A DNA stretch of 64,000 bases from Desulfomonile tiedjei (GCA_016218715.1 JACRDG010000053.1:62001-126000); one strand, 5' to 3'. Shown: positions 45,481-64,000, counted from the first letter of the stretch. Made by a program: numbers and translations. Notes: generated by a model not told the origin, from the sequence alone.

Positions 45481-45557
<77 letters not shown>

Positions 45558-45581
45558 AACAAGATAAGTCAAAGCAATAAG

Positions 45582-46676
45582 TTAGCCAACGCTGACAAGG
45601 TGCCTCTTCTTTCTTAGGACGACCATTGTGTCAATTTTGTGTCTTTCTGAGACACAGACCTGGTTGGCCGCCTCGATCAGTTTTTCCAGCTCAGGCATGG
45701 AGTAGTGAGTGGTGATTCGGCCCGACTTGTGGCCGAGAAGGTCTTGACGATCCTCAAACGAGACACCAGCCGCACGAAGACGCCGGCCGAACGTGTGCTT
45801 GAGGTCGTGAACCCGGACATCCGGGAGCCCAGCCTTCGACCTGGCAACTTTCCATGCTCGGTTGTAGAGCCTGCATAAAGGCTTCCCCTTCTGGGTGAAC
45901 ACATACTCATCGTGCTTGCCCCGCATCTCATCCACGACTCCTTTTGCCACCCTGTTCAAGATCACGAGACGATCCTCCCGGTTCTTCACCCGCCTTGCTG
46001 GAATAATGAAGACGCTCGTGCCCATCTCTGGGATTGGAACCCCCCATTCCCAGCGAAGGTTACAGACCTCCTGATCTCGGCATCCAGTATTGACCTTGAA
46101 GAGTGCCATCTGTGCGAGATATGGAGGAAGTTCGCTGAACAACCTGGCCTGCTCGCCCCAGGTAAGGGGGTACGGCTCTTTCTTGTCGTCCTCTTTCAGG
46201 AGCTTGATCTTCGGCGCATGCGCAAGCCATGTCAGTCCGTGCGCGTCCATCCATTCGGAAGCCGCAAGGTTCAGAATCCGACGGGTAACTTGGAGCCCGT
46301 AGTTGATGGTCCGCTTCTTCCACCCGGCTGCCCTGCGATCCTCAACGTACGGTTGAAGCGATCCCATGTGGACCCCTTCAAGAGGAAGATCTCCCAGGAA
46401 GACGTCAAGGACTCTCAAGAGATCCGCGTCGCGTTTGATACTGGCCTTCGTGGCTTCTTGGAGATGTTTCGTCGCCGCTTCTCGAAAGGTCCGCCGGGGT
46501 CTCACCCCGTAGATTTCAGCCTTCCGGACCTCTTCAGCCAGGTGCGCTAGGAACCGCTCGGCTTCCGTGAGGTCGCCTGTTCCAGTGCTTTCTCGAATTC
46601 GACGACCTCCGATGATCTTCTGGATGTGCCAGACTTCACCGCGTTTGATGAGCCCTGGTGTGGCTTTTCTGCCCAC
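45582..46676 (-). CDS. int: Tyrosine-recombinase integrase
   Basis: 364 residues, XerC/D-like. SAM-like core-binding domain ~60-160, catalytic domain ~165-340 with Arg200 (TGCRDQEV), Lys231, His290, His316 (LGHKSG) and Tyr325 (THYS). The second catalytic Arg of the HxxR motif is Lys293 (HDLKHTF), seen in some phage integrases. It should catalyse integration at the tRNA-Arg gene 25 bases away. The start is GTG 46676 behind AGGAGGGG. The gene overlaps the upstream HTH gene by 130 bases. Confidence 0.92.
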   Translation of the reverse strand: MGRKATPGLIKRGEVWHIQKIIGGRRIRESTGTGDLTEAERFLAHLAEEVRKAEIYGVRPRRTFREAATKHLQEATKASIKRDADLLRVLDVFLGDLPLEGVHMGSLQPYVEDRRAAGWKKRTINYGLQVTRRILNLAASEWMDAHGLTWLAHAPKIKLLKEDDKKEPYPLTWGEQARLFSELPPYLAQMALFKVNTGCRDQEVCNLRWEWGVPIPEMGTSVFIIPARRVKNREDRLVILNRVAKGVVDEMRGKHDEYVFTQKGKPLCRLYNRAWKVARSKAGLPDVRVHDLKHTFGRRLRAAGVSFEDRQDLLGHKSGRITTHYSMPELEKLIEAANQVCVSERHKIDTMVVLRKKRHLVSVG

Positions 46677-46897
46677 TTTGCCCCTCCTTTCTTAGTAGCC
46701 ACTTTACCAGGACGCCCGTTGCGCTCTTTATACTGATCAACCCAGGCATCCAAGTCAAGACGGTCAAAGGCCACCCCTTGTGTGCCGATGGGGATTTCGG
46801 GCACGCTCGGGCGCACTTCGGTGTTGAAGCGGTTGACGTCCATTCCGCAGTAACCGGGAGCATCTCGCAGCCGTATCAATCGGGGTAGTAGGTTCAT
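46547..46897 (-). CDS. AlpA-like HTH protein next to the integrase
   Basis: 116 residues. The first ~60 residues (LLPRLIRLRDAPGYCGMDVN then VAFDRLDLDAWVDQY) match the small helix-turn-helix proteins found in front of phage integrases; the tail is basic and probably disordered. A role as excisionase or integrase regulator is likely by position. Its 3' part overlaps the integrase start by 130 bases, an unusually long overlap, while its own start overlaps the preceding small HTH gene by four bases. Confidence 0.7.
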   Translation of the reverse strand: MNLLPRLIRLRDAPGYCGMDVNRFNTEVRPSVPEIPIGTQGVAFDRLDLDAWVDQYKERNGRPGKVATKKGGAKWAEKPHQGSSNAVKSGTSRRSSEVVEFEKALEQATSRKPSGS

Positions 46898-47106
46898 GAC
46901 GATACACTCCGCCGAATGGAGTAGAGAAACGTCTGCAGGTCATCCTCAGAGAACAGCCTCTCCTTGGGTGACACCTGGAAACACCCGAGTCGGCCGGCCC
47001 TCACCAGCGCATGCAACTGCTTCACGGTGCGTCTGAGCTTGGCTGCAGCCTCTTTAGCGGTGTACAACGCCTCCCGGGTTGACAGGGTTTGAATTCCTGA
47101 TGGCAT
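46894..47106 (-). CDS. Small HTH (MerR/excisionase-like) DNA-binding protein
   Basis: 70 residues. The pattern YTAKEAAAKLRRTVKQLHALVRAGRLGCFQ then LFSEDDLQTFL is a winged-helix excisionase/MerR-type HTH (helix 2 ~14-25, wing ~35-50). It overlaps the next gene by four bases, so the two HTH genes and int form one unit. Likely a recombination directionality factor or regulator. Confidence 0.75.
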   Translation of the reverse strand: MPSGIQTLSTREALYTAKEAAAKLRRTVKQLHALVRAGRLGCFQVSPKERLFSEDDLQTFLYSIRRSVSS

Positions 47107-47667: not shown

Positions 47668-48096
47668 TTATGACTCATACTTCACCACCTTTGCCTCTTG
47701 CGCCGGAATGATATTCACCCTGACATCCCCGGGTCCGGCGAAGTAATAGCCGTATTTCATCACGTGACAGAGCAGCTGCTCTGCCCAATCGCGAAACTCA
47801 ATCGCCCGCGGTGCGTTTGACAACATGGCCAGACGAATAACTCCTCTGAAATTGATAACCGGGCAATTCCGTTGACCTTTTATGGTGGACAAACTGAACA
47901 CCCGTACTTTTCCAGCGAATTCGTCCGCGTGCCTCTCGATGATCTTCCGACAATCAATCGGATCCGCGTGGCCCAAGGCTCGCCCGATGGCACGCAACGT
48001 GACGAAGCGCTCGCCGTCCAGCTCGATGACTTCGAGGTTCTGGTTGCTGAACCCCGGGAGTGTGGCCAGCGCTGTGATTTCAGGTGAGGGGTTCAT
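47668..48096 (-). CDS. BRO-N domain antirepressor-like protein (first copy)
   Basis: 142 residues from ATG 48096. The core EVIELDGERFVTLRAIGRAL then RGVIRLAMLSNAPRAIEFRDWAEQLL is the N-terminal BRO/ANT domain common in phage antirepressors and DNA-binding proteins. There is no C-terminal KilA or DNA-binding module. It begins two bases from the end of the ParB-like gene, so it is cotranscribed. A second BRO-N gene is at 50079. Confidence 0.78.
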   Translation of the reverse strand: MNPSPEITALATLPGFSNQNLEVIELDGERFVTLRAIGRALGHADPIDCRKIIERHADEFAGKVRVFSLSTIKGQRNCPVINFRGVIRLAMLSNAPRAIEFRDWAEQLLCHVMKYGYYFAGPGDVRVNIIPAQEAKVVKYES

Positions 48097-48098
48097 GG

Positions 48099-49487
48099 TC
48101 AAAATGGTGCGCCTCCTGGGGCCTGCGCTTCCGCCTTCGGGCAATCAAAAGCTGGTCCGGTGAAGTCGAGCGGCTCCATTCCCTTCCGCTTGGGCCAATT
48201 GCACAGGGCCTCTTTCCCGGTCCTACGAAAACCAGCACACGCTTGGCATCCCAGCAGTTGAAGGCGCTGCTCCACCCACTCACTTTTAGGGCCGGGTCTT
48301 TTCGATTCGGGTTGATCCGGAGGGGTCTCTGTAGATGGTTCGGTCTGTTGTCCCTCATCCTGTATTGGCTCGGACGCTCTGATGTGCTCTTCGATGCGAT
48401 CGCACAGGGTACGTAGCCACTGATCATCACGCCCCGCGACGATTAATAACGCAGCCTCTCCGGGATCATCGGGGATCGTCAGAATCCGGTCACTGGCCGC
48501 AACCAGCTCCTTAAATCGCTTTCGCTCTTCCCACACCTTCTGCTCTTTCACCTCCAATAAGTAACGCTCGCTACCTATTTCCTCCTCCACCCTCTGAGCT
48601 ACGTGTTCCCTGTCGTATGCTATAGCTTTTTCGAGGAAGCGTATTCGCTCGCACAGCTCCCTTTTAGGTTCCCGCATCGCCGGATCTTCTGCCTTGGCAT
48701 CTACCCGCGGGAGAGCTGTCTCAGGCTGGCTCGTGTCCTCGCGAGAAGGTTTTGCCGTTCCCCCGTCCCGCCTCTGCTTCTGCGTCTCCTGATAGGCTCG
48801 GTGGATGGTCTTCGTCCCGGCAAGGACTTCTTGCTTCGTCTCTTCAGGAGCATGATCAAGGACGGTCCTGGTCTGTTCCACCTTACGGGGGGAGATGCCG
48901 AGGGTTTCGGCGGTTTGCTCTGCAGACTTGCTTGGCTTTGGTGTAGCGCAATGTTGCGCTTGACCACCTGTGTGTTGATTGCCATGGAACTCCGGTTTCC
49001 GCCTTTCGTCTACTATGGCCACGAGCCTGGCAATGTCCGCGTCTGTGAGGTTCCGCCGGTCCCGCTGGTTATGAATCGCGTACTCGAGCGCCTCATCTTC
49101 AGTCGCAAACTCCTTGATCACCACAGGGACAGACTCGCATCCCACGGCAATAGCTGCCTTCAGTCTGGTGTGACCGTCGAGCAGCATCGGTTCATCAGTC
49201 CACGGACCGGTTCCGAGGATCAGAGGATACGCCTCGTCGAAGCCATGATCTCGGATGTGCTCTTGGATAGCCTGGCGGGTGCCTGAGTTTATCGGGAAAA
49301 TATCGGAGAAGGGGGCACCGGTCTTGATTACCTGTGGAGACACAGACCACTTATATGCGCGCGCGTCGTTTTGGAGGGTATTCCGTTGGGCTTCAAACAA
49401 CTGCCGTGCCCTGCGTGCCTGGTCTTCCTCGCTCAGGACGGACGACAGCTCAAGCTGCTTCTTCGACTTCCTACGTGAACCGGCCAT
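48099..49487 (-). CDS. ParB/Srx-fold nuclease-like protein of the element
   Basis: 462 residues. ParB N-terminal domain (~55-155) with MLLDGHTRLKAAIAVG, followed by a helical HTH region (~165-230, ISPRKVEQTRTVLDHAP) and a long charged coiled coil (~260-345). A C-terminal Cys cluster (CQACAGF, later LCNWP and FDCP) could bind zinc. Such proteins occur in phages and islands as DNA-binding or partition factors, and no ParA is adjacent. ATG 49487 follows GGGGAGG. Confidence 0.8.
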   Translation of the reverse strand: MAGSRRKSKKQLELSSVLSEEDQARRARQLFEAQRNTLQNDARAYKWSVSPQVIKTGAPFSDIFPINSGTRQAIQEHIRDHGFDEAYPLILGTGPWTDEPMLLDGHTRLKAAIAVGCESVPVVIKEFATEDEALEYAIHNQRDRRNLTDADIARLVAIVDERRKPEFHGNQHTGGQAQHCATPKPSKSAEQTAETLGISPRKVEQTRTVLDHAPEETKQEVLAGTKTIHRAYQETQKQRRDGGTAKPSREDTSQPETALPRVDAKAEDPAMREPKRELCERIRFLEKAIAYDREHVAQRVEEEIGSERYLLEVKEQKVWEERKRFKELVAASDRILTIPDDPGEAALLIVAGRDDQWLRTLCDRIEEHIRASEPIQDEGQQTEPSTETPPDQPESKRPGPKSEWVEQRLQLLGCQACAGFRRTGKEALCNWPKRKGMEPLDFTGPAFDCPKAEAQAPGGAPF

Positions 49488-50078: not shown

Positions 50079-50570
50079 GTGACGGTCAAGCAACTGGCGG
50101 AAGCGCTGGAATATGCTGACCAGAGAGCCCTCGTTCATCTTATTAACCGCAAGCAAGCAGAATTTCAAGATATGTCATGCGTGCTCAAATTAGACACGCA
50201 TGAGAAAAGCCGCTCTGTGCGGCGAGACATGATGATTCTCAACTACGATGGCATTATCCTCGCCTCGATGCTCTCCGACGCTCCCCGCGCTCCTGAGTTT
50301 CGAAAGTTTGCCATCAGCGTCCTGAAGCCCGTCATGACCCAAGGCTACTACCTCCCCGCGGAAGCCGAGACGGCCCTTGTCCAAAAGCTCACCGGTATTC
50401 TGGAGCAACAGGTTGACGGCAGGCTGTCCAACCTGGACGATAAACTCTCTGCGCTCACCAATCTCGTCTCCCAGAAAATGATTACCTCAGAGCCAGACAT
50501 CTCCGATTGGCCTACACCGGCACAACGCATCGCGCAACTCATCGTCCGCCGAACACCTCGTCCATATTGA
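50079..50570 (+). CDS. BRO-N domain protein (second copy), start uncertain
   Basis: 163 residues from GTG 50079; the reading frame stays open upstream with protein-like sequence (DVDFEIIDRDGNKW) and no ATG, GTG or TTG before 49985, so the true start is unclear or lost. WVTVKQLAEALEY, YDGIILASMLSDAPRAPEFRKF and the following helix match BRO-N, as in the gene at 47668. The C-terminal part has a helix (~100-135) resembling phage-type coiled coils. It is the only plus-strand gene of this stretch. Confidence 0.65.
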   Translation: MTVKQLAEALEYADQRALVHLINRKQAEFQDMSCVLKLDTHEKSRSVRRDMMILNYDGIILASMLSDAPRAPEFRKFAISVLKPVMTQGYYLPAEAETALVQKLTGILEQQVDGRLSNLDDKLSALTNLVSQKMITSEPDISDWPTPAQRIAQLIVRRTPRPY

Positions 50571-55999: not shown

Positions 56000-56279
56000 G
56001 AGCACTCGCCGACCGACCCACCGCGAGAGAACATAAGTTTTCCTTATGAAAAAAGGGTGTAGATACATTGTGTATACGCCAAGAAAACGACAACGCAAGC
56101 TAGTCCAGTGACAGGGGAGAAATGGCATAGGCCAGTCCGATGAGAAGTATCGGAAATAGCAATAACCCTAACTCCCGCGCTCGTCTCTCTGGCCCATCCC
56201 CTCTTTCCCGCTCTGGTGCTGGGTTTTCTGGCTGTTGTTTTTGGCATGGGTTCTAGGGTTTTGAGTGATTACAATGTAA

Positions 56280-56801
56280 TTACCGTGACCACTTCTTGAA
56301 CGGCGCGTCCAGTCGGTGGGCCTTGTCGAGAGCCTTGGTCGCTTTCCCCATGCTCTCCACGGTCTTGTGGAACTCCCGAGCGTACCCGACCAACAGCCCC
56401 TCGCATATCTTCGCCGCCGTTTCCCTGTCCTGCCCGAAAATCACCGGGTGATATCTCGTGCTCCAGGTCATCAGAGTGCCCCAGACGGACCGCGGATGTG
56501 CCCTGGACAAGGACCCGAACGACTCCACGAGAAAAGCCGAGGGGGAGGCCTCGATCAGGAGGAAAAACCGGTGCAGGCTCCTCGCCCTCTTGAGTTCGGT
56601 TTCAAAACGTTCACGCCCCTGGGTTACGCTGCCCAGCAGATCGGGGAGGCTCTTGCGCTCCACCGCGATGAGATGCTCCAGCCCTGCTATGCTGTAATCG
56701 CCATACGTCAACGTCCCGGTCACGCAGGGTGTTTGGAACAGGGGAGAATAACCCCGTTGTTCCCTTGAGTCCTGGACGATCACGATGGCCGGCTCAGACA
56801 T
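56280..56801 (-). CDS. ERCC4-type nuclease
   Basis: 173 residues. The nuclease core DSREQRGYSP (GDxnERKx3D type) with the second signature AVERKSLPDLLGSV and the spaced residues D12, E49-R50-K51 give an XPF/ERCC4 active site. The protein lacks a helicase domain and is as long as small phage or mobile-element nucleases that cut branched DNA. It overlaps the start region of the gene at 56794 by eight bases. Likely functions with the primase in element replication. Confidence 0.85.
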   Translation of the reverse strand: MSEPAIVIVQDSREQRGYSPLFQTPCVTGTLTYGDYSIAGLEHLIAVERKSLPDLLGSVTQGRERFETELKRARSLHRFFLLIEASPSAFLVESFGSLSRAHPRSVWGTLMTWSTRYHPVIFGQDRETAAKICEGLLVGYAREFHKTVESMGKATKALDKAHRLDAPFKKWSR

Positions 56802-57147
56802 GCGCCTCGGGCCTGTGACCCTTCTTCGGACCCTTCACCCCGAGGATCTTCGCCGCGAGGTTCAGCTCTTCCTCAGACGGGCCAGTGGTTCGCTCGCATC
56901 GTTCCGGCCGTCTCCTCAGTGGTGAAGGATTTTCCGGTAACGAGTCTCGATCCACGTCGCGGAGAATGCGCGCCCACTCCGGCCGGTATTTTGGATGGAA
57001 CCTCGGCAAGTTCATGCGTGGCCCCCAGTGGTACGGTGGATGGATACCGCAACGGACCAGTCTCTCGATATCCCAGGACGGGACATGGTTCAATTCGGCA
57101 ACTTCAAAGATGGTGTCGTAAATCGGCACCTTTTCTCGGGAATTCAT
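56794..57147 (-). CDS. Hypothetical protein upstream of the ERCC4 nuclease
   Basis: 117 residues. A probable N-terminal HTH-like part (IYDTIFEVAELNHVPSWDIERLVRCG) is followed by a basic, Pro/Arg-rich tail. ATG 57147 sits behind AGGGGGT. It overlaps the nuclease gene by eight bases, suggesting coupled translation. No family recognised. Confidence 0.55.
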   Translation of the reverse strand: MNSREKVPIYDTIFEVAELNHVPSWDIERLVRCGIHPPYHWGPRMNLPRFHPKYRPEWARILRDVDRDSLPENPSPLRRRPERCERTTGPSEEELNLAAKILGVKGPKKGHRPEAHV

Positions 57148-57162
57148 ATTTACCCCCTATCA

Positions 57163-57219
57163 ATTCGTGAAAATTCGCCCGTAATTCGGGTTTTCTTGGT
57201 AATTCGTGGTCAATATTCG
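57163..57219. repeat. Short ATTCG repeats upstream of the 57147 gene
   Basis: ATTCG occurs at 57163, 57173, 57184, 57202 and 57215, then ATTCA at 57224, with CCCG-TAATT-CGGG (57178-57190) between. It sits in the promoter region of the 56794 gene and may be a protein-binding cluster. Confidence 0.45.
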
Positions 57220-57281
57220 GTCAATTCACTCAGAAACCTGGGTTGGTCACCTCCTTCGCCAGCCCCAGCCAGGGCTCTGGT

Positions 57282-57485
57282 TTATCGCGGACAGTCTTCT
57301 TTCATAAATCTAATAGCCTGCCGCAATTGCCACACGTCCAGCTCACCGCGGGCACATGCGCCCAGGAGACGGGTCACCGGATATCGGACAGCACGGAGAG
57401 TTGCTAGAGCTGAGTCGTGCTCTTCCAGAGGCAACATTGCCAGCAGCGCATCGAGGTCTTGGGTGCAGTCGCTTGGTAGTGTCAT
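57282..57485 (-). CDS. Hypothetical small protein
   Basis: 67 residues, mainly helical and acidic (LDALLAMLPLEEHDSALATLRAVRY then VWQLRQAIRFMKED). Its ATG at 57485 overlaps the stop of the gene at 57482 (ATGA), the main support for it being real. No family recognised. Confidence 0.55.
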   Translation of the reverse strand: MTLPSDCTQDLDALLAMLPLEEHDSALATLRAVRYPVTRLLGACARGELDVWQLRQAIRFMKEDCPR

Positions 57486-57760
57486 TGGTGCTTCTCCTTC
57501 CGTATCTTGACTTTAACCTCCCAGTTTTGAGCCTCTTCTGACCGAGGTTTGAAACCCGCGGCCCGGAGTGCACCCTTGAACTGGCCATTCGTCACATAGA
57601 AGCCGTCCTCAGACTCCTCGAATATGTGTTTGAGCCCGTAACTCGTGCTGGGGCAGTAGGTACGCGCCGGTTTGAGCCACTCGTGAATCCATGTCACCAG
57701 CGCTCCTTGCTCGGTGATGGGTAACTCGTGAAACTCGTCGGGATCGTCTACTCGATTCAT
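57482..57760 (-). CDS. Hypothetical protein with a domain found in element primase loci
   Basis: 92 residues. The segment YGLKHIFEESEDGFYVTNGQFKGALRAAGF followed by basic residues looks like the short C-terminal DNA-binding module seen at the end of some phage D5-type primases or beside them. AAGGAG precedes ATG 57760 by six bases. It is the gene immediately downstream of the iteron cluster. Confidence 0.55.
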   Translation of the reverse strand: MNRVDDPDEFHELPITEQGALVTWIHEWLKPARTYCPSTSYGLKHIFEESEDGFYVTNGQFKGALRAAGFKPRSEEAQNWEVKVKIRKEKHQ

Positions 57761-57795
57761 GATCGTTTCTCCTTGGGCTTTTGTCGCCCCATATT

Positions 57796-58134
57796 TGTCA
57801 CCACTTCGGGTGGTTTGTCACCGCTACGAATCATAAGGACCAGAGCTGGTGTGGTGCTAATTATGGGCACTTTACCCGCATAAATGCTCAACTGGTGACA
57901 ACCTAGTTAGCTCTGGTAAAGGGCAACCTATGCGAAAAACGCTGTCACCACTTTTTCGCGACACATATACCCCTGTACGAGCACGTAGCGCGCGTGAACC
58001 ATAGATGGTGTGTTTATGAGAGAACCCCTCGCGCGTATAGGAGCATGTTTTATATGGTGACATGGTGACATACTATATAACTACTTAAATACATTATAGA
58101 ATACCTGTCACCAATCTGTCACCAGCCTGTCACC
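57796..58134. repeat. Iteron cluster with AT-rich stretch, candidate replication origin
   Basis: Nine copies of TGTCACC lie in 339 bases: plus strand at 57796, 57816, 57943, 58106, 58117 and 58128; minus strand (GGTGACA) at 57894, 58056 and 58064. Eight are TGTCACCA. The last three are spaced 11 bases. A nearly pure A/T stretch runs 58071-58104 between the groups, and ACCAGAGCT (57839-57847) pairs with AGCTCTGGT (57909-57917). No gene covers 57761-58147. It lies directly downstream of the primase/helicase gene. Phage P4 alpha protein is known to bind GGTGAACA iterons, so an origin is the natural reading. Confidence 0.75.
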
Positions 58135-58147
58135 AACTGGGGACACC

Positions 58148-61078
58148 TTATGGTTGAGCCGCTGAACCACAGACATCCTCCCGGCTATCTGGTCCACCGT
58201 CAATCATCCCAGCTTTAACGAACGCCTCCCGGCGGATAGCTGTCACCCGGACACGTTCCCGCCCAATCCGTACCTGACGCCCTTTTCTGCCGCCGTCGTG
58301 GATCAACCACCCTGCCTCTTCCCATGCCGCTAACACGGCTTGAACGTCATACCCAAACTCACTCAGGGTCTTGTTCAGCGTATGAGGCATGATACCTAGA
58401 AAATTCCAATCCGCGGCCCGATCCCATTTGCCAAGCCACCCGCCACGCGGGGTCGTATTCTCTGCCCCACCCGAATCAGCCTCACTCCGTCCATGAAATG
58501 AGGTTTGATTCGCCGTAGCCCACGAGTAAACGAGCTGCAGGGCACGACGCCCAACATCGGCATCGTTCAATTCTGCCGCGATTCCCGGCCACAGCTCGAC
58601 AAAAGGGTCCTTAAAATCCCAGAACAACAGGCCGCTCTCGTGGATAAGTTCCCCTGCTGTCACGATGGCTGCCCGCATGTCGCTCACCCTGCCCGCAAAC
58701 GGATTTTCTTCAATGTATGATTCACATTTCGCCCGATAGCGTTGCTTCCACTCAGGCCAATCCTCCCTATGGGCGAGGATGTATTCGATCCATGCAGGGC
58801 CGAGGTGGCCGTAATGAAGCGTTGCGGATTTGATGAGCTTTGCAACAACAGCTTTTGCTTCAGCATCCTTGAAGTCGAACGGTAATCCGCGGATGGACAA
58901 AACCCGAGCATAAGCGCCGCCGTCAGTGCTGTAACTGGACAATGGTGCCTCTCCGGTAGACAGTGCGATGGTGCTCCACCGTCTCGTAGGTTGCATCCCT
59001 CTGATGCTCCCGCGATTCTTACCGTGCCCTTCCGCTACGGCATAGATCATACGGGGGATCATTTTTGGGTTGGGGCATTTCTTTGTATCATCCACGCCTA
59101 CAGGCAGGTTGTGGAGTGTCGCGCACACCCGTTCTAGAGCAACCGGCGTGCTGTACCATGTGTGGACGATTCCGTGGTGTTCGGCGAGAGCAGGATTGCC
59201 CCATGAGCTCATCGCGAACATAAGAGCGGCCGTTTTGCCCGAGGTAGAGCCGCCGCTCAAATCAACCCAAAAGGTGGGGACATCGAAGATTTTCAACAAG
59301 ACGGCCGCTATAGCTGCGTACAGCATCACGCTTGCCCGTGGAAAGCAGCTCATTTCAAAAGCAGCGGATTGCCAATCCTCGAAATTCCCCTCAGGATGGA
59401 ACCCCTTAATGATCTGATTATCCCCCGCATCCGCCGGGTGGAACGTGATCTCGTCATCACCGATGCACCGATCCCCCAGGAGAAACGCGGCCGGTGGGTC
59501 TCCGCCCGTCCATCCGAGCTGAGAGGAAACCCGCTGCACCCTCAATGAATCAGCGTTTGCCTGGTCGAATTTGAAAATATAGTCGGCTATGTCTCGACTG
59601 TTTGATGAGCAGACAGGGAAATCTCGGTTTGCATGCTGGCATATCTCATGAGATGTTACAAAACTGGCTTTCGGGGCTGTGATGTTGCGCCACCCCCGTG
59701 GCGTATGATGCTCCACGTCGAGAAAAACCTCCCCGGTGGCCACGTCCTCGCGTTTCCCCGTGATCAGGACATATGACGGGCAGACATCGAAGCGCTGCGC
59801 CTCGCCGTCTTTGGAGAATACAACGCGCCCGATTCCGCGATCATCGATTGAATACTGAGGAGGGAGGAACAGATCCCCGCAGCCATCGGGGACAGAGATG
59901 CCCTGGGCGTTTAGGAGAGAGCCGAGGGTCGGAGATTTGACCTCATCGCCGGGCTTCACCAATCGTAGCCGATGTTCGGTTAGTTCCTCTTGCAGATCGG
60001 AAACAAAACCCTTGCACGCATTTTTGACTTGAACCCAGAGAGCACGATCTTCTTTCTTGACGACTGCCAGAGCCCCGATAGACTCCGGCTCAAATGCTGT
60101 TTCTCTCAGTCGGTTCGGTTCGGAGAGGATAGCCCGCACGCGCTCCTGTGCCGACGTGATTTCCTCCCGGCCGTCCGGGTATTTGAACGCCTGGGAAATC
60201 TTCTTGCGCCACTCTGCCTCCGGAAATGGGGGGTCGCAATTCTCTGCCGCTGTGCGTACCAGCTCGACGATTTCAGCCTCCCGGAGACCGCGGCCCCGTC
60301 CAGAGCACGCGTATTTGAAAACCAGGTCGTCCCGCTGCCCCTCAGAAACCCCTTTCAGGACGAGCGAGAGGTCGCTATGAGGCCCTTGTTTCGCAGCTTT
60401 CTTGCCGTCCCCATTGGTCGCGTCGGCTCTGGCCAATTCAACCAGCCACTCGGGCGCCTCAGCGAGTGGGATATCATCAGGGGATGTCACAAATCCCCAC
60501 TGATAACGTGCGCCGCTGTAATGATTGCTCGGGGGTAGGATGACGTAGCCGCCGTCGCCCCGGACGTCGATCTTGAGCCCCACTTTTGACGCGCTATTGG
60601 GGATTTTGCCGCCCGGATGCTTGAAATATAGATGTCTCCCGCGCCCAGTCTGCACCTCCCAGGTGTCAGGTAGCGGCTCATTTTTTTCGGTAAGTGCCGC
60701 GAGTGAGGCTTCGCCCTCGGGACCGTCGATGTCCAGGACCCAGACGCCACTAATAGCGCCGGTTCGCAACCCGATGTTGGAATCAGGCCAACGCGTCCAC
60801 CATGTCTCAATGAGTGTTTCGTCGGTAGTGGCATTTGAAAGGCCGGACGGCAAATCGTTCTTATTATACCGTGGATGCTTTCCTCGGTTTTTTCCGTTGC
60901 ATTCAGGGTTCCCGCAACTGCACTTGCCGTCCTTGTCAGTCGTGTGGAGGGCGAACACGTGCATCCCGCGCGCGGCAGCGTCCAGAGCTGATTTGAGAAA
61001 CTGATTTGTCTGTCCGATGGGTGTGGGCGCACCAGTAGCGCAGCCCGCTTCTTGCGTCAGTCCATCGTTCGTGTTCAT
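58148..61078 (-). CDS. PrimPol-DUF927 primase/helicase of the element
   Basis: 976 residues from ATG 61078. N-terminal bifunctional primase-polymerase domain (~25-215) with acidic catalytic pair D116/D118 (VLDIDGPEG) and His149 (GRGRHLYF), plus a Cys/His cluster (CSCGNPEC) near 53-60. A linker (~230-420) with PRiCT-like helices follows, then a DUF927 helicase-type ATPase (~500-840) with Walker A GGSTSGKT (~610). It should prime and unwind the element's DNA. The iteron cluster lies 13 bases beyond its stop. The ATG follows GAGG at nine bases. Confidence 0.9.
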   Translation of the reverse strand: MNTNDGLTQEAGCATGAPTPIGQTNQFLKSALDAAARGMHVFALHTTDKDGKCSCGNPECNGKNRGKHPRYNKNDLPSGLSNATTDETLIETWWTRWPDSNIGLRTGAISGVWVLDIDGPEGEASLAALTEKNEPLPDTWEVQTGRGRHLYFKHPGGKIPNSASKVGLKIDVRGDGGYVILPPSNHYSGARYQWGFVTSPDDIPLAEAPEWLVELARADATNGDGKKAAKQGPHSDLSLVLKGVSEGQRDDLVFKYACSGRGRGLREAEIVELVRTAAENCDPPFPEAEWRKKISQAFKYPDGREEITSAQERVRAILSEPNRLRETAFEPESIGALAVVKKEDRALWVQVKNACKGFVSDLQEELTEHRLRLVKPGDEVKSPTLGSLLNAQGISVPDGCGDLFLPPQYSIDDRGIGRVVFSKDGEAQRFDVCPSYVLITGKREDVATGEVFLDVEHHTPRGWRNITAPKASFVTSHEICQHANRDFPVCSSNSRDIADYIFKFDQANADSLRVQRVSSQLGWTGGDPPAAFLLGDRCIGDDEITFHPADAGDNQIIKGFHPEGNFEDWQSAAFEMSCFPRASVMLYAAIAAVLLKIFDVPTFWVDLSGGSTSGKTAALMFAMSSWGNPALAEHHGIVHTWYSTPVALERVCATLHNLPVGVDDTKKCPNPKMIPRMIYAVAEGHGKNRGSIRGMQPTRRWSTIALSTGEAPLSSYSTDGGAYARVLSIRGLPFDFKDAEAKAVVAKLIKSATLHYGHLGPAWIEYILAHREDWPEWKQRYRAKCESYIEENPFAGRVSDMRAAIVTAGELIHESGLLFWDFKDPFVELWPGIAAELNDADVGRRALQLVYSWATANQTSFHGRSEADSGGAENTTPRGGWLGKWDRAADWNFLGIMPHTLNKTLSEFGYDVQAVLAAWEEAGWLIHDGGRKGRQVRIGRERVRVTAIRREAFVKAGMIDGGPDSREDVCGSAAQP

Positions 61079-61220
61079 CCTAACCGTCCTCATACAATTC
61101 CAAACCACGTTCGTGGTGGTATTCCGAATGCGCCTGGTCCTCAATCTGTGAGCAATTCTCGGGACGGCGCGGTCCCTGCCAGGCCAAAGGCCGGCCTAGT
61201 TCGCAAAAAAATTTACTATT

Positions 61221-61237
61221 TGTTGCGGTGCAGCAAT
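61221..61237. promoter_or_regulatory. Inverted repeat in the primase control region
   Basis: TTGTTGC-GGT-GCAGCAA (one mismatch) overlaps a possible minus-strand -35 (TTGCTG at 61232-61237; TAAATT at 61211-61216, spacer 15). Candidate operator of the primase promoter, possibly for the XRE protein at 61327. Confidence 0.4.
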
Positions 61238-61326
61238 TTTGTGGTAGAGTGAGGTCACCCTCAGATTCGTCAGATTCATCGTGTTCACCTCGGACCCCGC
61301 CGGCAAGCGGGGTTTGCTTTTGTGGC

Positions 61327-61581
61327 CTACCGCCCCCCGCACGCGGAGCAACGGACCCCGTTGCCGCGATCTGAAAACAGGCTACCAACAGGCACTTCCT
61401 CTAATAGCTCTGTGATAGGGACGCCAAACACCTTCTCTAGTGCCAATCCGAGTCTGAGCGTGGGGTATTTGGTTCGTCCAGTTTCGATTCCGCGTATCGC
61501 AAATGACGAGAATCCGGCCAGTTCGCCCACGGTTTCTATCGTCATTCCACGAGCCTGTCTCAGCAATCGCATTTTAGTCAT
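61327..61581 (-). CDS. XRE-type helix-turn-helix regulator
   Basis: 84 residues. MRLLRQARGMTIETVGELAGFSSFAIRGIETGRTKYPTLRLG contains the five-helix HTH_3 fold of Cro/C1-type repressors. A short C-terminal tail holds CSAC. Preceded by GGAGAG and ATG 61581. It is the first gene on the minus strand before the primase; the 8-base inverted repeat and promoter immediately upstream suggest autoregulation. Confidence 0.85.
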   Translation of the reverse strand: MTKMRLLRQARGMTIETVGELAGFSSFAIRGIETGRTKYPTLRLGLALEKVFGVPITELLEEVPVGSLFSDRGNGVRCSACGGR

Positions 61582-61619
61582 AACAGTCTCTCCGGGCTTG
61601 TGAAATTATGTCTATATCA

Positions 61620-61646
61620 GCCCAGAATGGCGTGAGTTTTCTGGGC
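61620..61646. promoter_or_regulatory. Operator candidate: GCCCAGAA-N11-TTCTGGGC
   Basis: Perfect 8-base arms separated by 11 bases, located between the predicted -10 element and the XRE gene start. Confidence 0.5.
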
Positions 61647-61659
61647 CACGGTTGCATAC

Positions 61660-61688
61660 TCTTTATCCCCGCTTTGCCGGGTTGTCAA
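61660..61688 (-). promoter_or_regulatory. Promoter of the XRE gene
   Basis: On the minus strand perfect TTGACA (61683-61688), 17-base spacer, TAAAGA (61660-61665). The inferred transcript start lies near 61653, so the operator candidate would sit in the start region. Confidence 0.5.
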
Positions 61689-61870
61689 CTGCTATTTTAT
61701 AGTAAGGGCTATTTTTTGAAGGCGATACTATTAACCCATCGAAACTATTGGATGAGCAAGCATCCTGAGCCACTCCTGCATGCTCGTCTTCGGTGACTAA
61801 CGTTGACGTCAATCATCACTCATGTATCGCCTATTTCATCTCGAATCGCACTATACCGTACCGAATTAAC

Positions 61871-61905
61871 CTGAAATGGACTGAAACAACCTGAACGTTG
61901 TTCAG
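61871..61905. repeat. Phased CTGAAA/CTGAAC repeats
   Basis: CTGAAA at 61871 and 61881 and CTGAAC at 61891, spaced exactly 10 bases, plus inverted GTTCAG at 61900-61905. It looks like a binding site cluster on one face of the helix, in the 460-base non-coding region between the XRE gene and the 62043 gene. Confidence 0.55.
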
Positions 61906-62042
61906 TTTCGAGGGGGGACTGAGGGGTTCGTCGAGGGTCGGGGCGCGTTACGCGCCGGGAGATATCATATGCTGTGTTAAAGACCAACAATATCAGTATA
62001 TAGTATGACTGTTTCAAGACTATAGATGAGGTAGGTTAACTG

Positions 62043-62357
62043 CTACGAGCGATGGTGAGCGATTCGTGGGGTTTTGAAGCGGATTTTGAGACGTCGGCCG
62101 TTCGTGGGAAGGGGGACCGTCGAGTCAGGAGTGTGGACCGGGACCTCGGGCACTGTCGGAAGGTCACTCGATGCACTCTCGTTTTGAGAGTCCATCCATA
62201 ACTGGTAGCTCGCACACAGATCGCGGACATTTTCCGGGTCAAGCTCTCGATACCAAGCCTGCAGCCCGGGCACGTCAACCGACCCGAGGGTCTCCTCCAT
62301 CGCGATGAGAGTTTCATCGGGGATCTCGACGGAATAGAAGGCGTCTCGGATGGTCAT
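62043..62357 (-). CDS. Hypothetical protein of the element, possibly leaderless
   Basis: 104 residues. The first ~65 residues are acidic and probably helical (EIPDETLIAMEETLG, LQAWYRELDPENVRDLCASYQLW); the tail is Pro/Val-rich and ends basic. No family recognised. No ribosome binding site precedes ATG 62357, but a promoter places the transcript start at the ATG itself. Confidence 0.5.
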   Translation of the reverse strand: MTIRDAFYSVEIPDETLIAMEETLGSVDVPGLQAWYRELDPENVRDLCASYQLWMDSQNESASSDLPTVPEVPVHTPDSTVPLPTNGRRLKIRFKTPRIAHHRS

Positions 62358-62363
62358 GGCTCA

Positions 62364-62400
62364 TCTATAAGCGAAGCGCTTTCGGTGTGCAAGTTGCACA
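62364..62400 (-). promoter_or_regulatory. Promoter and overlapping palindrome for the 62043 gene
   Basis: On the minus strand TTGCAC (62387-62392), 17-base spacer, TATAGA (62364-62369), six bases before ATG 62357. The perfect palindrome TGTGCAA-G-TTGCACA (62386-62400) covers the -35 element and is followed by eight T at 62403-62410, so in the plus direction it could also act as a weak terminator. Confidence 0.5.
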
Positions 62401-62473
62401 GGTTTTTTTTCAGCCACCTCACACAACGAGTGGACATAATCGACAGGATAACCCGATGATTTTCTCCCCTCAC

Positions 62474-62500
62474 TGATCACAAACTCAAAGTCTGTGATCA
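62474..62500. promoter_or_regulatory. Inverted repeat TGATCACA-N11-TGTGATCA upstream of the recombinase gene
   Basis: Perfect 8-base arms with an 11-base centre, about 170 bases upstream of the serine recombinase start. It could be an operator or part of a recombination site. Confidence 0.45.
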
Positions 62501-62668
62501 CAGCGGACCGCTTCCACGTTCCTCAGGGGAGATATCACCATGATACTGCAATGTTATGGCTATTATAGAGAAACTCCCAGTCACTACCAGAAAAAGCTTG
62601 ACCTCTTTTGTTGTAATCAAATAACATACCTGTTACATAATCACTGCTATAGGAATGGAGCAAAGAGG

Positions 62669-63351
62669 ATGAAGGCTATCAGCTACCGGAGAGTATCCGC
62701 TCAGGAGCAGATAGACGGGACTTCACTGAGAAGCCAGGGAGAACAGGCCCGAGCTTATGCGGCCCTGAAGGGAATGGACTTGATCGAGGTGTTGACAGAC
62801 GCCGGTGTCTCTGGGGGATGCCTCTCGCGGACAGGCCTGCAGGACGCCGGGTGGTCGAGATGCTCGCCAACCACGAAGCCGACTGTCTGATCATCACGAA
62901 GCTGGACCGGGGGTTTCGCAGCGCTTCCGATTGTCTCGTCAATGTGGAAGCATGGGAGAAGCTGGGTGTGGGCCTTCATATCCTGAACCTCGGTGGACAG
63001 ACGATTGATACCAGCACACCGACCGGGAAATTTTTCATCACCGTCATGGCTGGAGCTGCTGAACTAGAGCGCAACCTGATTAATGAGCGCTGTTCTGAAG
63101 GTCGCAAAGCACGAGCGGCCGAAGGAAGGCGAATCGGTACCATCCCTTTCGGCTTCGCCTTAGGGAAGGATGGCCGCACATTGGTAGTCAACCCTGACGA
63201 ACAGGAGGCAATTGCAATATGTCGCAACCTATCAGACTCGGGCATGAGTATCCGTCAGATAGTGGCGGAATTGAACGCACGGCGAATCAAGACAAGGGGG
63301 GGAGCGTGGAGCTTCACCCAGGTTCACCGGATTCTCAGGAAAGCAGCTTAG
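62669..63351 (+). pseudogene. Serine recombinase broken by a one-base frameshift
   Basis: Two frames together make a resolvase-type recombinase of ~228 residues. Frame 1 from ATG 62669 (ATGGAG upstream) gives MKAISYRRVSAQEQIDGTSL with catalytic Ser10, then diverges after GVSGG. Frame 2 continues MPLADRPAGRRVVEML, then ITKLDRGFRS and the E-helix GAAELERNLINER. The frames meet at a run of five G (62813-62817); six G would restore one frame. C-terminal part is a short recombinase-type DNA-binding region (IRQIVAELNARRIKT). Could be inactivated, a sequencing error, or a slippery site. Confidence 0.75.
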
Positions 63352-63804: not shown

Positions 63805-64000
63805 TCATAATCGCCCTGCCTGTCCATCTCGATGCCTATGTCCTCGATCCATACGCGGATCCGCGACGTTCACCACAAGCCTCTGAGTGCCCAGACGCAA
63901 AGAGCCACCCTGGAATTGAGCTGCACCCCCCCGGGATATTGGGACCCACGGCCGGGTCACGGCCTCCGGGGAGCGGAAGTAAATTACCCCGCGTAAATTG
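63805..64000 (-). CDS. Partial open frame at the right edge
   Basis: Open to the window edge on the minus strand, ~65 codons, protein-like sequence (YFRSPEAVTRPW, GGSLRLGTQRLVVNVADPR). A different frame continues with WIEDIGIEMDRQGDYDET before a stop at 63756, so a frameshifted gene end or two overlapping ends is possible. No family recognised. Confidence 0.3.
   Translation of the reverse strand, partial: NLRGVIYFRSPEAVTRPWVPISRGGAAQFQGGSLRLGTQRLVVNVADPRMDRGHRHRDGQAGRL

Follow-up and report, generated by a model that had tools for sequence, protein, structure and literature searches.

Region 57761-58147 of a 64,000-nucleotide stretch of Desulfomonile tiedjei DNA (GCA_016218715.1, JACRDG010000053.1:62001-126000; in the following: the window) is very probably the theta-type replication origin of an element integrated in a tRNA-Arg gene, and the 976 amino acid (aa) protein encoded beside it very probably the initiator. 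Both would be of the kind known from SaPIbov1 Rep, a protein of a Staphylococcus aureus pathogenicity island (SaPI), and from Cch of the staphylococcal cassette chromosome (SCC) SCCmec. An integrated element with a SaPI/Cch-type origin and initiator is the best reading. A first-pass annotation had proposed an iteron origin beside a primase-helicase in an integrated element. This proposal is now well supported by the domains of the protein, the attachment (att) repeats of the element, a survey of DUF927 loci and the match to SaPIbov1 Rep.

The iteron array and the AT-rich stretch

Nine exact copies of the heptamer GGTGACA/TGTCACC are located within 339 bases (57796-58134), at 57796 (+), 57816 (+), 57894 (-), 57943 (+), 58056 (-), 58064 (-), 58106 (+), 58117 (+) and 58128 (+). 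Under a first-order Markov model fitted to this same region, 0.08 copies are expected, and the maximum in 5000 simulations was 3. This confirms the count given earlier and its large excess over chance. No other 387-bp segment in the 103 kb of contig scanned contains as many copies of one heptamer. Two additional copies, at 57692 and 58241, lie inside coding sequence. The distance of 13 bases between initiator gene and array, also reported before, is correct: The gene stops at 58148, and the nearest iteron ends at 58134.

Read in the direction of the gene, the array starts with group A, three GGTGACA copies with an 11-bp period (58106-58134). It is followed by a 35-bp AT-rich stretch (58071-58105), the proposed unwinding element, and by group B, two TGTCACC copies inverted with respect to group A with an 8-bp period (58056-58070). 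Four more copies are distributed over 230 bp: single iterons at 57943-57949 (+) and 57894-57900 (-) and two iterons with a 20-bp period at 57796-57822 (+). The stretch between the groups had been described as nearly pure A/T. It is indeed AT-rich, and its A/T level is matched by just 0.03% of the 35-mers in the 103 kb, but it is not pure, with 28 of 35 positions (about 80%) and 83% in the best 35-mer. Likewise, a 9-bp inverted repeat is present (57839-57847/57909-57917), but carries no weight as evidence because simple arithmetic yields about 0.6 such pairs by chance in 551 bp. Neither an Rfam scan of 56000-62600 nor a comparison of the origin DNA against phages returned a match.

In the proposed mechanism, integrase and excisionase would release the element in circular form. 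The C-terminal winged helix of the initiator would bind the GGTGACA iterons, and initiator rings would assemble on the two opposed groups (GGTGACA x3, TGTCACC x2). The 35-bp AT-rich stretch between them would melt, the helicase would unwind outward and the Prim-Pol domain would make primers for the host polymerase. These steps are inferred, as are autonomous replication of the element and its copy number. Directly observed are the nine repeats and the AT-rich stretch, the domains of the protein with their intact catalytic motifs, the att repeats of the element and the general occurrence of heptamer arrays 3' of DUF927 genes.

The probable initiator protein

The initiator gene (58148-61078, minus strand) is open throughout 976 codons. 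The encoded protein comprises a Prim-Pol domain of the archaeo-eukaryotic primase (AEP) type (residues 31-211, 60446-60988, PF09250, 1.6e-44), PriCT_1 (residues 239-292, 1.4e-06), a DUF927 AAA+ helicase domain (residues 410-695, 58994-59851, PF06048, 6.3e-37), which is also seen in the predicted fold, and a C-terminal winged helix (HTH_56, residues 841-947, 58238-58558, PF18662, 4.6e-11). The latter family is named 'Cch helix turn helix domain' and is the proposed iteron reader. The catalytic motifs are intact: LDIDG (115), RHLYF and KIDVRGDGG in the primase, Walker A GGSTSGKT (609) and Walker B VGVDD (660) in the helicase.

In a search of solved structures, the initiator was matched by sequence by SaPIbov1 Rep (8tch, 1.8e-32, residues 404-957) and SCCmec Cch (5dgk, 3e-15), and the best of these matches extend through the C-terminal winged helix to residue 957. 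An AlphaFold model based on 46 relatives (predicted local distance difference test (pLDDT) 88, predicted template modelling score (pTM) 0.83) retrieved the same two proteins in a fold search, SaPIbov1 Rep first (E 7e-28) and Cch second (E 1e-24); MCM, D5 and SV40-type helicases followed far behind. The helices and the wing of the winged-helix region 890-955 are modelled with a mean pLDDT of about 83-91. A single-sequence model (pLDDT 33) was not usable. Three features of the SaPIbov1-Rep/Cch class, a DUF927 AAA+ domain with Walker A and B motifs, a C-terminal winged helix and a short-repeat origin directly 3' of the gene, are present. By sequence and modelled fold, the initiator is a DUF927 helicase of this class to which an AEP Prim-Pol primase is fused.

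Iteron arrays at DUF927 loci

A search of 395 genomes from the Desulfovibrio phylum located DUF927 genes in 27. A gene was counted as having an array if one heptamer occurred six or more times in the 500 bp that follow the stop codon. In a first set from the same phylum, 17 of 29 DUF927 genes are followed by such an array, compared to 2 of 116 segments from gene bodies. A second set was gathered independently from IMG/VR and GTDB genomes and reduced to 92 non-redundant DUF927 genes. Here, arrays are present downstream in 48 of 92 cases, in the gene body in 2 of 380 and upstream in 0 of 86 segments. Heptamer arrays directly 3' of DUF927 genes are general and occur in phages, plasmids and islands. 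The heptamers GGTGACA, GGGTAAC, GGTTACA, GGCGACA, TGGGACA, TGGAACA, GTGTAAC, GGGAACA and TGGTACA are typical. When they are aligned with both orientations allowed, a common core G-G-(T/G)-N-A-C-A emerges with a log-likelihood of 353, compared to 163 +/- 8 for letter-shuffled iterons treated by the same seeded procedure. Of 69 origins, 60 have two or more iterons to the left as well as to the right of the most AT-rich 35-mer in the array.

Relatives in 99 genomes are distant or have the primase domain alone in common. A full-length homologue of the initiator (L277; 30% over 935/976 aa) is encoded on a phage-like 27.7-kb IMG/VR contig, with a small terminase and RusA nearby. Its origin follows the same plan as in the Desulfomonile element, with CCGTGAC x8: two copies, an AT-rich stretch, two inverted copies and scattered copies. 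An absence of iterons from relatives, named beforehand as a point that would speak against the origin, was not encountered; arrays are found at the same place in relatives, usually composed of a different heptamer.

The probable reader of the iterons

The C-terminal winged helix probably binds the GGTGACA iterons, because a change of iteron accompanies C-terminal divergence and because iteron columns are conserved. In three homologues (G175, L248 and L249), the helicase cores are 93-98% identical and the last ~100 residues about 55-68%, and the iterons differ: GGTGACA, GGCGACA and GCCCACA. Among homologue pairs with a core identity of at least 0.80, which are not independent, C-terminal identity is 0.77 in same-iteron and 0.67 in different-iteron pairs at core identities of 0.91 and 0.92. 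In two homologues from the Desulfovibrio group (74% identical overall), 63 of 63 iteron columns are identical, compared to 62 of 79 other array columns. For Cch2, the C-terminal domain was shown to bind direct repeats 3' of the cch2 gene, and for SaPI Rep the C-terminal domain is stated to be the iteron reader (PMC7581432).

Iteron-bearing relatives often have Toprim primases or no primase in the same chain. Since Toprim primases are so frequent among them, the iteron follows the DUF927-C-terminal half and not the kind of primase. Prim-Pol/PriCT as iteron reader (compare the GTG start of the pRN1 primase) is unlikely in view of these relatives and of the many iterons that lack GTG.

The repeats might instead be operators of a leftward operon beyond 57760, bound by the XRE-type regulator encoded upstream of the initiator gene (61327-61581, minus strand; HTH_31 1.1e-08, HTH_3) or by the initiator as a repressor, without a role in replication. 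Besides the presence of this regulator, a promoter-like sequence GTGACA-18-TATAAT (11/12; 58093-58122, minus strand) speaks for operators: It overlaps an iteron of group A and the AT-rich stretch and is directed at the genes beyond the origin. However, DUF927 genes are followed by differing heptamer arrays in phages, plasmids and islands whatever the neighbouring genes, the arrays change with the helicase C-terminus and flank an AT-rich core, and the arrays that SaPIs and phage-inducible chromosomal islands (PICIs) carry at this place have been proven to be origins (PMC6092414). A purely regulatory role is therefore very unlikely. Autoregulation and origin function could coexist, and initiator bound at the iterons could repress the genes beyond the origin via the overlapped promoter-like site.

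Several observations weigh against a SaPIbov1-Rep/Cch-kind origin read by the winged helix. About half of the DUF927 genes have no array in the 500 bp examined. Across all homologue pairs, iteron and C-terminal identity are weakly related (Mantel; partial -0.06; 63/500 permutations as low), and the correlation is seen among close, non-independent pairs alone. A search at the protein level in genome and viral contig collections yielded no close relative of the element, so that these particular iterons have no counterpart in a sister element for comparison. Finally, the element contains a broken serine recombinase, which may mean decay.

This gene, in an element with a tyrosine integrase, is split over two overlapping frames (62671-62890 and 62818-63351, plus strand), owing either to a frame change or to an error in sequencing. 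Together with the lack of recognised transfer genes, it could indicate a decayed island that has lost excision and replication and retains origin and initiator as relics. Such a fate is unlikely: The initiator gene has its 976 codons in one uninterrupted frame and encodes intact primase and Walker motifs, the nine iterons and the 50-bp att repeats are exact and the integrase is intact.

Comparison with known replicons

Origins of SaPIs and PICIs follow immediately 3' of rep, have an AT-rich region between two iteron sets and support the replication of plasmids (PMC6092414, PMC7581432). Therefore, the earlier designation of the element as a new type could not be upheld. SaPIbov1 Rep resembles the initiator described here in its DUF927 helicase with a C-terminal DNA-binding domain and in the iteron origin around an AT-rich region directly 3' of rep. 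In the SaPI-like record PT1028, GGGAAC x9 is found directly after rep. The Desulfomonile element differs from SaPIbov1 in the AEP Prim-Pol fused to the helicase, in the iteron GGTGACA and in its host, probably from the Desulfovibrio phylum; SaPI packaging genes were not recognised among the element's open reading frames (ORFs) scanned with Pfam and PHROGs, the scope of all gene searches in the element. SCCmec Cch is a DUF927 homologue of the initiator (5dgk, E 3e-15) but has no fused primase, and SCC uses serine recombinases (Ccr), whereas the element has a tyrosine integrase and resides at a tRNA gene.

In Gram-negative PICIs such as EcCICFT073, pri-rep is followed, as here, by two iteron sets flanking an AT-rich region (PMC6092414). 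An integrase and a specific att site are further PICI features of the element. This raises the question of a satellite that is induced and packaged by a helper phage in the manner of PICIs or P4. The PICI-like origin layout and initiator class, the integrase and excisionase-like genes and the lack of structural genes are consistent with a satellite. On the other hand, no small terminase (terS), capsid-remodelling or redirection or interference genes were recognised, with the limits that such genes diverge fast, can be unrecognisable, and that not every PICI has terS. Known PICIs are smaller than 25.9 kb. A satellite has a modest chance of being the right explanation. The element is not filed as a PICI because PICI-exclusive genes were not recognised among the ORFs scanned and phage induction is hypothetical.

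Phage P4 had been chosen as the model in the first-pass annotation. The comparison holds for the layout and approximately for the iteron: P4 type 1 repeats, TGTTCACC, are located in crr directly 3' of alpha, and alpha is a primase-helicase with a C-terminal winged helix like the initiator (PMC4234260). It does not hold for the nearest kin, which is the DUF927 SaPIbov1-Rep/Cch class. Alpha carries a Toprim primase (PMC4234260) in contrast to the AEP Prim-Pol and DUF927 found here. P4 has an 8-bp iteron and a separate ori1, and the repeat of the element is the heptamer TGTCACC, which is absent from P4, while TGTTCACC does not describe the repeats of the element. P4 thus differs in the class of primase, the class of helicase and the repeat, and the element is not filed as P4-like for these reasons.

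The 13-kb Geobacillus plasmid pSJEF4-2-2 (CP128451) encodes the closest counterpart of the helicase-C-terminal half (33% over 535 aa), and its DUF927 gene is followed 3' by TGTCACAA x15 surrounding an AT-rich region. This is a free plasmid with a separately encoded CHC2-type primase, in contrast to the fused primase and the integrated state here. As a natural case, it indicates that a module of this kind can go along with free replication. PrimPol-PV1 elements (Kazlauskas 2018), which are cryptic elements, share with the Desulfomonile element an AEP primase fused to a DUF927 helicase, integration at tRNA genes and the lack of phage and conjugation genes (PMC5862659). Relaxase or conjugation genes expected of a conjugative or mobilisable element were not found among the ORFs scanned.

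In pRN1, a stem-loop 3' of the Prim-Pol replication gene serves as origin (PMC4234260), and the region analysed here folds as single-stranded DNA better than shuffles (z -3.9). Nevertheless, it is highly improbable that the initiator recognises a stem-loop and not iterons. The main fold consists of opposed iterons pairing across the AT-rich stretch. In addition, pRN1-type replicons combine Prim-Pol with an SF3 helicase and a stem-loop origin without iterons, whereas the helicase here is DUF927, nine iterons are present and DUF927 genes are as a rule accompanied by iteron arrays.

TGTCACC arrays beside other helicase families

TGTCACC triples were found in at least 120 stretches of viral contigs, often 3' of other primase-helicase families, and were rejected as a mark of this element. 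Among the matches listed, the ORFs ending at TGTCACC arrays (n=46) include 16 of DUF5906, 8 of VapE, 7 of D5_N, 6 of Prim-Pol and one of DUF927; none of these families appears among 16 ORFs in the matches listed for the reversed-heptamer control. Raw counts do not discriminate because the reversed heptamer also yielded 103 stretches; 66 of these, compared to 46 of the 120 TGTCACC stretches listed, fall within ORFs of 200 aa or more, and many of the 103 form long regular arrays. At the IMG/VR loci L029, L032, L037, L046, L055, L059, L121 and others, TGTCACC arrays are located directly 3' of VapE-like, D5_N, DUF5906 and DUF3987 primase-helicases. This means, the same heptamer serves unrelated helicase families.

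There is a reasonable though not quite even chance that DUF927 origins belong to a single class across phages, plasmids and islands and follow an iteron code, in which the array is 3' of the gene, the repeats are GG(T/G)NACA-like and the winged helix sets the heptamer, with a repeat vocabulary common to VapE, D5 and DUF5906 initiators and to P4 TGTTCACC. If so, the sequence could be used to predict the specificity and incompatibility of replicons, and repeats common across helicase families would point either to convergence or to a shared winged-helix reader of old origin. A protein-DNA recognition code becomes testable with initiators that have near-identical motors, different C-termini and different iterons. 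The wider survey result matters more than the single origin. Among known bacterial replicons, the origin layout was stated to be confined to PICIs (PMC6092414). This is contradicted by the survey, which finds the layout well outside PICIs. The likely origin directly downstream of the DUF927 gene in about half of the cases furnishes a simple annotation rule for mobile elements, and a SaPI/Cch-type replicon with a fused AEP primase is now placed in an element that resides at a tRNA gene of a host probably belonging to the Desulfovibrio phylum.

The integrated element and its other genes

The element is integrated in tRNA-Arg (TCT; 45481-45557, plus strand), and this target gene is intact. Its length of 25,876 bp follows from the exact recurrence of the terminal 50-bp sequence of this tRNA gene: The left att copy is at 45510-45559, the right one at the window-equivalent position 71386-71435 (L002 8386-8435), 7.4 kb past the window. 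The right boundary previously placed at 64000 is wrong. In another genus of the same family, a broken integrase, 60-78% identical, is located alongside the corresponding tRNA-Arg (L450, G003:C50, 7039-7689), so a related element has used the site. Two further related genera have coaBC-tRNA-Arg without an integrase. They do not provide a clean empty site because the right flank is not syntenic, though the left side and the tRNA match.

A tyrosine integrase (45582-46676, minus strand; PF00589 4.5e-17, phrog_1 6.4e-45) and an excisionase-like HTH protein (46894-47106, minus strand; HTH_17 1.5e-07, phrog_1840 excisionase 0.0034) are encoded at the end with the tRNA gene. No capsid, portal, tail, terminase or relaxase genes were detected among the ORFs scanned. 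A ParB-like nuclease/partition protein (48099-49487, minus strand; phrog_4715, 5e-14) and two BRO-N proteins (47668-48144, minus strand, and 50079-50570, plus strand) are possible maintenance or regulation genes. Beyond the origin, an ERCC4-type nuclease (56280-56801; PF02732, phrog_3490 1.7e-19) is encoded in the same direction as the initiator (minus strand). Directly after the origin, a 92-aa gene (57482-57760, minus strand) has phrog_9576 (unknown function, 2.5e-22) as its sole match and is therefore a phage-type gene linked to this replicon.

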